This document shows positions 14,247 to 16,614 of a stretch of 64,000 bases of DNA, piece by piece. Location: contig NZ_CP135084.1 of the NCBI RefSeq assembly GCF_032229285.1, positions 2,170,001 through 2,234,000 on the forward strand. Direction: 5' to 3'. The notes beneath the pieces are model-generated. The model ran no database searches. It was not told the DNA's origin and saw only the letters and a list, made by a program, of their open reading frames with translations. Source of the stretch: Rheinheimera sp. MMS21-TC3 (GTDB taxonomy: Bacteria > Pseudomonadota > Gammaproteobacteria > Enterobacterales > Alteromonadaceae). Within the stretch, counting starts at the first letter, position 1. Each line of letters opens with the position of its first letter. The position numbers were made by a program, and so were the translations under genes.

Positions 14247-15209
14247 ATGATTCAGCTAAGTTATTTTGAACCTGAAACGGCACTTTGGCAGCATGGTGAT
14301 ATTTCGCTATTACCAAAGCAACTTCCTGCTGATGCGCGGTTATGGATAGATTTAAATAATGCTACTGCAGAAGAGCAACAAGTGGTACTACAACGTTTTG
14401 GTATTTTAGCCACCTTAACTGAAGACTTTAGCCGAGAGCGCCATCCACCAAAATGTGAAGGTCAAACTGATTTTACTTTATTAGTTCTGCGCGGTTATGC
14501 TGATACTGACTTCAGTGAATATACTGCCAGTGTGCAAATTAACTTACTTTATTCTAAGCAAGTATTAATTAGTAAATTGACTAGCCATAACGCCAGCTTA
14601 CTAGAGCAGTTTAAACCTAAAATAGCTCAGGGAATTAGCGCTAATATTGCCGATTGGATAAAACAGATCATTTTAATTACCTCCAGCAGCTATTTAGAAA
14701 AACTAATAACTTTTGAAGATGAATTAAGCGATTTAGAAGATGCCATGCTGCAAAGTGGCAATGATGATTTAATGGCCTTAATAATGCGTTATCGATCGGT
14801 GTTACGGAAAATAAACCGAAACTTAGCCTATCAAAAAGATATATTCTCTGAAGTCTTCGATGAGCAGCAAAATCCTTTGTTACGCCATTTTGATGCCACT
14901 GAGCTGCGTGACTTTTATGAAAAGTTTGAACGTTCACATAGCATGACAGATATGTATTATGACCAGCTTAGTGATTTAGTCGATAGCTATTTATCAACTA
15001 CATCACACCAAATAAACGAGCGAATGAAAGTGTTAACTATTGTCAGCACTATTTTTATCCCCTTAACCTTTATTGCCGGCATTTACGGCATGAACTTTGT
15101 GAACATGCCTGAATTAGCCATGACAAATGGTTATTTTATCGTTATGGCCGCCATGGCTGTCGGTGGTATTTTTGGCCTAGCTTGGTTCAAGTTTCGCGGC
15201 TGGTGGTAA
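14247..15209 (+). CDS. corA: CorA family magnesium/divalent cation transporter
   Basis: This 320-residue CorA protein forms a pentameric inner-membrane channel for Mg2+ (Co2+, Ni2+). A long cytoplasmic N-terminal funnel domain is followed by two C-terminal membrane helices. The signature GMN is at residues 281-283 in GIYGMNFVNMPEL, and the protein ends with a basic, aromatic tail (WFKFRGWW), both as in CorA and unlike ZntB. An upstream GGAG (in ACGGAGATT) supports the start. It sits 55 bases ahead of the damaged mgtE, so two unrelated Mg2+ transporters are adjacent and probably cotranscribed. Substrate is inferred from family. Confidence 0.88.
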   Translation: MIQLSYFEPETALWQHGDISLLPKQLPADARLWIDLNNATAEEQQVVLQRFGILATLTEDFSRERHPPKCEGQTDFTLLVLRGYADTDFSEYTASVQINLLYSKQVLISKLTSHNASLLEQFKPKIAQGISANIADWIKQIILITSSSYLEKLITFEDELSDLEDAMLQSGNDDLMALIMRYRSVLRKINRNLAYQKDIFSEVFDEQQNPLLRHFDATELRDFYEKFERSHSMTDMYYDQLSDLVDSYLSTTSHQINERMKVLTIVSTIFIPLTFIAGIYGMNFVNMPELAMTNGYFIVMAAMAVGGIFGLAWFKFRGWW

Positions 15210-15264
15210 AGTTTACGCTCATTAATATTGAAATAACTTTATTTAAAATTAGGGATCCCTTTAT

Positions 15265-16614
15265 ATGGCTGATAGCCAACAACTTGATATAGATGAAATT
15301 GTTAGAGATAGCTTTAATATCGAGGATGCTATTCAACTAACAGATAAACTGGGGCAATTAGAGCCTGAAGAGGTTGCATTAGCACTTGAAGCAATGCCAC
15401 TAGAGCAACGTGTTAGTGCTTGACTTAGTTTACCCCCTACTGAACAAATAGCCGCTCTTACTTATATGCGGGTTGATGCTCGTGATAACGTTTTTAAACA
15501 ACTAAGTGAACAACAATTAAAAACCTTAGTTGAAGAGATGGATGTTGATGATTTAATTGAATTACTAGATGAGCTGCCCACTGCTATTTATGACTATGCT
15601 TGCTCTAGAGTCGATGTTAGCCAACGTCGCTGGTTAGATACGGCCTTAACTTATGATGATGAGCAATGTGGTCGTTTTGCAGACCATAATATGTTAATTA
15701 TTAATAAAAATGCCAAAGTACGAGATGCATTAAGACTGTTTAGCCAGCTAGCTTTAGACACTGAATATCACGAAGCTTTATTTGTGGTTGATCGCCATGG
15801 TTGCTATGTTGGTTTAGTCCATGCGACTCAACTTTTAAGCTTAAACGAACACCAAGCTATTGAAGGAATTATTGACCTTGCTGCACCTTGGATTGAGGGT
15901 GAGATAGCACTAGAGCAAGCATCTGACATAGTATCTCGCTCTGGTTATAATGCGCTTGCTGTCGTAGATAAGGGTAATAAGTTACTTGGCCGGCTCTCTA
16001 TCAGTAAAGCCTTTGATATAGTGCGGCGCAACCTTGAAAGTCAGTTTATGCACACGGCAGGTTTAGATGAAGAAGAAGATTTATTTTCGCCTGTCTTTGC
16101 AAGTTCTAAGCGCCGAGCATTATGGTTAGGGATTAATCTACTTACCGCCTTTCTTGCGGCATGGACTATTGGCTTATTTTCAGCCACCTTACATCAAGTA
16201 GTAGCACTTGCAGTGTTAATGCCTATTGTTGCTAGCATGGGCGGTATAGCCGGCAGCCAAACATTAACCTTGATTATTCGCGGTTTAGCCATGGAGCAAA
16301 TAACACCTAGCACTTATATGACCCTACTGCGAAAAGAGCTTGGCGTAGGCAGCCTAAATGGTATTTTATGGGCTCTAGTTATTGCCTTAGTCACTTACTT
16401 TTGGTTTGGCGACTGGATGATTGGCAGCATTATTGGCTTGGCTATAGTGATCAATATTATTATAGCGGCTATTTTTGGCGTCATGATCCCAATTTGGCTG
16501 AAGAAGTTAAAAATTGATCCTGCATTATCTGGCTCTGTCATTTTAACGACTGTTACAGATGTTATTGGCTTTTTTGCTTTTTTAGGCTTAGGCTCTTTAT
16601 TTTTACTCAACTAA
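15265..16614 (+). pseudogene. mgtE: MgtE magnesium channel gene interrupted by an in-frame TGA
   Basis: Reading from ATG 15265 gives 52 codons, a TGA at 15421-15423, and then the same frame stays open to the stop at 16612-16614. Without the TGA the product would be 449 residues, the normal MgtE length. The pieces form one protein: N domain, two CBS domains, and five C-terminal membrane helices with MPIVASMGGIAGSQT and TTVTDVIG, the channel-lining motifs. The stop sits where MgtE proteins often have Trp in the pattern RxxLWxxLP, so a TGG-to-TGA change is likely. A 382-residue product could start at ATG 15466 but has no clear ribosome-binding site. Alternatives are sequencing error or UGA readthrough. 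Confidence 0.8.

Follow-up and report, generated by a model that had tools for sequence, protein, structure and literature searches.

A single in-frame TGA at a conserved tryptophan codon interrupts one of the two mgtE genes of Rheinheimera sp. MMS21-TC3

The stretch of DNA analysed here (the window, 64,000 nucleotides, G000:C1:2170001-2234000, from the genome of Rheinheimera sp. MMS21-TC3, designated G000) carries, one behind the other on the same strand, corA and mgtE, the end of corA lying 55 bases before mgtE, as an earlier note on this DNA had reported. The mgtE frame is interrupted by a stop codon in the part that encodes the N domain. The features on which the argument depends, in window coordinates, are the following:

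14247..15209, forward strand: corA, Mg2+/Co2+ transporter family, intact, 320 amino acids (PF01544, 196 bits)
15250..15255, forward strand: Shine-Dalgarno-like stretch before mgtE, identified by eye; the orthologue in G019, the nearest genome in our comparison set, has one too
15265..16614, forward strand: mgtE frame of 449 codons and a terminal stop, with one interruption
15265..15420, forward strand: 52-codon part before the stop, by translation
15421..15423, forward strand: in-frame TGA, codon 53; genus orthologues have Trp here in 26 of 27 cases
15424..16614, forward strand: part after the stop, with the rest of MgtE_N, the CBS domain and the MgtE transmembrane domain (Pfam)
15466..16614, forward strand: longest remaining open reading frame, 382 amino acids from codon 68, covering MgtE_N profile positions 37-102 of 102

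Translation of 15265-16614 yields 449 codons and a sole internal stop, the TGA at codon 53, exactly as the earlier note had described; no further stops or frameshifts were found in the frame, and its continuity rules out a frame error in place of a substitution. Similarity on both sides of the TGA had also been claimed, and it is borne out by the part after the stop, which is 89.6% identical to the G019 orthologue over 383 of its 396 residues, far above chance, and in which Pfam places MgtE_N, CBS and MgtE domains all in one frame. Taken alone, that part scores 216.9 bits against NCBIfam TIGR00400, below the cut-off of 232.75, and the 52-codon part alone has no Pfam or NCBIfam match at E <= 0.001. 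The N, CBS and transmembrane domains follow one another in the same order as in Thermus thermophilus MgtE (PDB 2yvx/2zy9), with the difference that the window's frame is interrupted in the N domain. By gene descent, as judged from its sequence, the interrupted mgtE is thus a member of the MgtE family of Mg2+ transporters, albeit one lacking an uninterrupted frame.

The relatives leave little ambiguity as to what codon 53 used to be. In a comparison set of 31 genomes, G000 included, from the group Rheinheimera/Arsukibacterium/Alishewanella, the other 27 genus orthologues all have a sense codon at this position, namely TGG in 26 and TAC (Tyr) in one, and the column of the stop holds Trp in all 120 database homologues considered, the best 120 of 7997 with E <= 0.001. 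Both the placing of a Trp codon at this position and the comparison with relatives that the earlier note had proposed thus point in the same direction: an ancestral sense codon has been replaced by a stop, the pattern expected of a pseudogene, and the UGA is not kept across diverged relatives, as it would be in an established readthrough gene. The closest MgtE among the database matches listed is 92% identical; with nothing closer among them, close relatives give no date for the change at codon 53, and cluster representatives in the protein database may conceal sequences of the same species.

In this genome UGA retains its ordinary meaning as a stop. An RF2 gene is present, scoring over the cut-off, and across 289 aligned gene pairs 1207 of the 1219 Trp residues of G019 are also Trp in G000, so that TGA is not a general Trp codon; TGA is the terminal codon of 25 of the 289 sampled G000 genes, compared with 34 in G019. 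ARAGORN called no tRNA with a UCA anticodon on the loci covering 69 tRNA matches, and a UCA suppressor tRNA was discarded on this basis, the search having scored 150 of 279 first-look candidates, such that an odd tRNA could escape it. A selenocysteine reading was likewise rejected, neither tRNA-Sec (RF01852) nor SelB (TIGR00475) having a match over the cut-off in G000 and codon 53 being Trp, not Cys, in the homologues.

A scan for disrupted genes between G000 and G019 covered 864 kb of G000 in two portions, of 464 kb and 400 kb, with 300 and 241 matched G019 genes respectively (541 comparisons), the genes being the longest non-overlapping open reading frames of at least 90 amino acids, called mechanically. 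Matches below 55% identity or with E above 1e-15 were dropped, and the output omitted stops within 8 residues of either end. Stops at residues 9 to 35 (11 plus 7 G000 genes) were judged by eye to reflect differences in start site and were left out of account, as was a mechanical open reading frame of 106 amino acids that has stops at its residues 50 and 54. With the start-region stops thus set aside, no gene but mgtE had a stop deep in its frame that was not accompanied by a frameshift. A genome-wide reassignment of UGA to Trp is rejected on account of the RF2 gene, the want of a UCA anticodon among the called tRNAs and this single deep in-frame TGA in 864 kb. In one pair the direction was reversed, with TGA at residue 13 in G019 where G000 has Trp, and this position lies before the real start. 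Several G000 genes match two adjoining G019 frames (near G019:C1 1323460, 1548080, 1743482, 1780500 and 1826350), which suggests that the G019 assembly has frameshifts, or else consensus errors, at these places.

Despite the interruption, the remainder of mgtE looks like that of a normal gene. Relative to G019, codons 54-449 give dN 0.075, dS 1.33 and dN/dS 0.056 and the whole gene dN 0.071 and dS 1.39, the dS values being rough, since above 1 they approach saturation. For the open reading frame after the stop (codon 68 onwards) dN/dS is 0.053, which ranks 149th against a background of 289 reciprocal-best orthologues from 464 kb with a median of 0.053. Averaged over 41 outgroup proteins (P0004-P0044, out of 120 fetched), amino-acid changes specific to the window's protein and to each of its three nearest relatives numbered 13.6 v 11.8, 11.7 v 11.7 and 11.9 v 13.1, and in these three comparisons the window's protein shows no clear surplus of changes of its own; by a rough estimate, such a surplus would be expected had the gene evolved neutrally for anything beyond a few per cent of the branch. 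Stop aside, the window's protein is altered at 4 of 249 near-invariant positions. In a leave-one-out count it departs at 3 of 217 positions, stop included, the highest figure among 121 sequences (the three nearest relatives have 2 each, which is also the next highest value overall), and this may be read as a weak sign of relaxation. Relaxed selection after the stop, as would mark an older pseudogene, was therefore not found, and a very recent event would look alike: from a typical dN/dS and no rate excess it follows that the stop arose lately, unless the gene is still functional.

We consider it probable that the TGA arose very recently, by a nonsense mutation that hit one of the two mgtE genes and gave a null or leaky allele buffered by other transporters. 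Young bacterial pseudogenes can arise by a single nonsense substitution, and mgtE resembles them in having one in-frame stop in a gene otherwise intact, typically conserved and accompanied by functional redundancy; no feature sets it apart from them, save that the tRNA background of the host could make it leaky. The recent change of a Trp codon proposed in the earlier note thus gains from the Trp in nearly all relatives, the single lesion, the unaccelerated rate and the typical dN/dS. Translation may still begin at the normal site, where a start codon and a Shine-Dalgarno-like stretch are present; RF2 would then end it at codon 53, the product would be a useless piece of 52 residues, and the rest of the frame would stay mostly silent, save for what a UGA-misreading tRNA-Trp lets pass, leaving an mgtE allele that is null or strongly reduced. 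Two points speak against loss as the whole explanation, namely that the gene would evolve at a functional rate just as well under readthrough and that the features of the host tRNA-Trp favour some readthrough.

The redundancy invoked here is broader than the adjacent corA. A second, intact MgtE gene lies at C1:577240-578517 of G000, and such a distant MgtE (20-22% identity, no stops) is found in all 31 genus genomes, G000 included. The first MgtE adjoins corA in 18 of the 18 genus genomes, again including G000, for which both positions were listed, and it is absent, with corA kept, from three of the 31 (G003, G017 and G025, the first two being draft genomes); in G025 the open reading frame after corA is a gene that we take to be RimK-like. 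It had been suggested that the loss may be tolerated through corA; this is plausible and is strengthened by the second MgtE and by the three genomes that do without the gene, and from these genes we infer that CorA and the second MgtE would let the cell dispense with the first. G000 is moreover the smallest of the 31 genus genomes (a single contig of 3,136,108 bases, completeness 99.97; 3.14 Mb versus 3.3 to 4.7 Mb for the others listed). Outside the window, at about G000:C1 2050660-2052220, three lesions break, relative to G019, a frame which we assume to be Kef-like: 11 bases are deleted, and a single base is inserted twice, within runs of G and of T. These lesions may be either real decay or partly sequencing error. 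Given the small genome, this second broken gene and the three genomes without mgtE, gene loss is the ordinary reading, and as such the case is an unexceptional one of a redundant Mg2+ transporter dropping from a small genome.

Among the alternatives, the one that fares best, while still unlikely, is that the native tRNA-Trp(CCA) reads the UGA as Trp and delivers enough MgtE for selection to act upon, perhaps from a low-dose allele. The host has two identical copies of this tRNA gene (G000:C1:496743-496819 and 2320161-2320237), with A24 (the Hirsh position), an unpaired G27/A43 that leaves an anticodon stem of 4 pairs, and A59, where the E. coli tRNA-Trp compared has G24, C27-G43 and G59 (positions numbered by hand). 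Overexpressed E. coli tRNA-Trp with a 4-bp stem raised UGA readthrough about 2.5-fold according to Fakih et al. 2026 (PMC13092985), who also name G24A as facilitating readthrough, rank the G:A unpinned pair as one of the three most frequent variants, and cite in vitro work in which C27A was essential in a C27A/G24A/G59A triple mutant. Trp is also exactly the lost residue that such a tRNA would restore, and terminal TGA occurs in the 25 of 289 sampled genes mentioned above. The earlier note, which had raised readthrough too, regarded the TGAC sequence at the stop as leaky. Belinky et al. 2021 (PMC7918605) argue that bacterial genes with in-frame stops can keep dN/dS below 1; like mgtE, those genes combine a single in-frame stop with purifying selection, although their study focuses on stops common to two or more species, whereas the mgtE stop is present in one genome.

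Against functional readthrough stands the distribution of the tRNA. The inspection took one tRNA-Trp copy from each of 28 other genus genomes, G014 and G023 not being among them; all 28 have A24, G27/A43 and A59, as does one further genome of the same family, yet all 27 other genus orthologues have a sense codon at position 53. In these 28 genomes the tRNA-Trp differs from that of the host at two acceptor-stem positions in 26 and is identical in 2, and a strain-specific suppressor tRNA-Trp is thereby ruled out. Of 197 genomes sampled from the order, at least 50, in 26 of 80 genera, share the A24/G27/A43 core (exact matches to one 22-base pattern, hence a lower bound for the structure), yet G000 shows no second deep in-frame TGA among the 541 comparisons. 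Furthermore, PMC13092985 cites C27A as ineffective in vitro by itself, and the overexpression result may fail at native levels, at which the significance of 4-bp-stem tRNA-Trp remains to be assessed according to the same source. Single-sequence folds gave no reliable RNA structure after the stop, so no signal for readthrough was found there. As the tRNA features are lineage-wide, leaky readthrough of any UGA in the lineage is plausible, so far as sequence can tell, without mgtE being singled out.

Readthrough nevertheless keeps a small share of our credence, since a recent stop and one that is read through would look the same in the selection data and since the host carries a tRNA-Trp of the type linked to UGA misreading. 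In its strict form, in which a host with the standard code has kept the gene alive after a Trp-to-UGA change by means of a native tRNA-Trp(CCA) with A24, an unpinned stem and A59, we regard it as doubtful. If true, it would constitute natural informational suppression at the level of a strain and at native tRNA levels, and would provide a reason for Trp-to-UGA changes being milder in this lineage. The locus is in either case a natural test case, uniting a native Trp-to-UGA gene with a host whose only tRNA-Trp found has a 4-bp stem plus A24. The tRNAs of Fakih et al. share with the host tRNA-Trp the unpinned top pair of the anticodon stem, to which the host adds A24, whereas the focused set of that study excludes A9C and/or G24A tRNAs; its main text makes no mention of Rheinheimera or Alishewanella (PMC13092985). 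Among the papers listed by a shallow literature search, none dealt with this Rheinheimera mgtE/UGA/tRNA-Trp case, and we do not claim that it is absent from print.

It is improbable that base 15423 is wrong in the sequencing or in the consensus, or that the culture sequenced was polymorphic at this base. The TGA is known from one genome sequence of a single strain, and both its fixation and its reality rest on that assembly; it is a lone substitution in an otherwise typical gene, and no other strain of the species was found with which to compare it, the closest MgtE among the matches listed standing at the 92% given above. On the other hand, the assembly is a single contig of very high completeness with few disruptions over 864 kb. 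Insertions of one base in homopolymers are the typical long-read error, and the two in the Kef-like frame sit in homopolymers, whereas the change in mgtE is a substitution and thus of another kind.

A truncated channel from ATG 15466, lacking part of the N domain, had been proposed in the earlier note as a further alternative. That such a shortened MgtE works, mis-gated for want of about half of that domain, is very unlikely, since this ATG, which is indeed the next in frame (codon 68), has no Shine-Dalgarno-like stretch before it (by eye) and encodes a Met conserved in the intact proteins of the aligned genus relatives, hence no new start, and since the dN/dS of the 382-residue frame is unremarkable. 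In its favour, that frame retains the CBS and pore domains and about half of the N domain (an estimate from the 2yvx alignment, on the assumption that a tag shifts the chain numbering), and a delta1-129 mutant with higher open probability is cited in PMC3435302, a source which also reports poor growth support in cells by its own delta1-137 MgtE mutant. According to PMC8104411, the N domain moves away from the CBS domain in the absence of Mg2+.

Among 34 matching mgtE loci in genome records, 31 belong to Rheinheimera/Arsukibacterium/Alishewanella or to gammaproteobacterial MAGs, and the others include Nitrincola and a Chromatiales MAG. An assembly of Nitrincola alkalilacustris, an organism outside the genus group, holds an MgtE (L061) 71% identical to that of the window, for which horizontal transfer or a contaminant contig are possible explanations. 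The neighbouring gene has a counterpart in a close relative: a CorA 95% identical to that of the window (P0121) represents 5 contigs, from the sources lgn and ena and at most 129 kb long, which are probably metagenomic.
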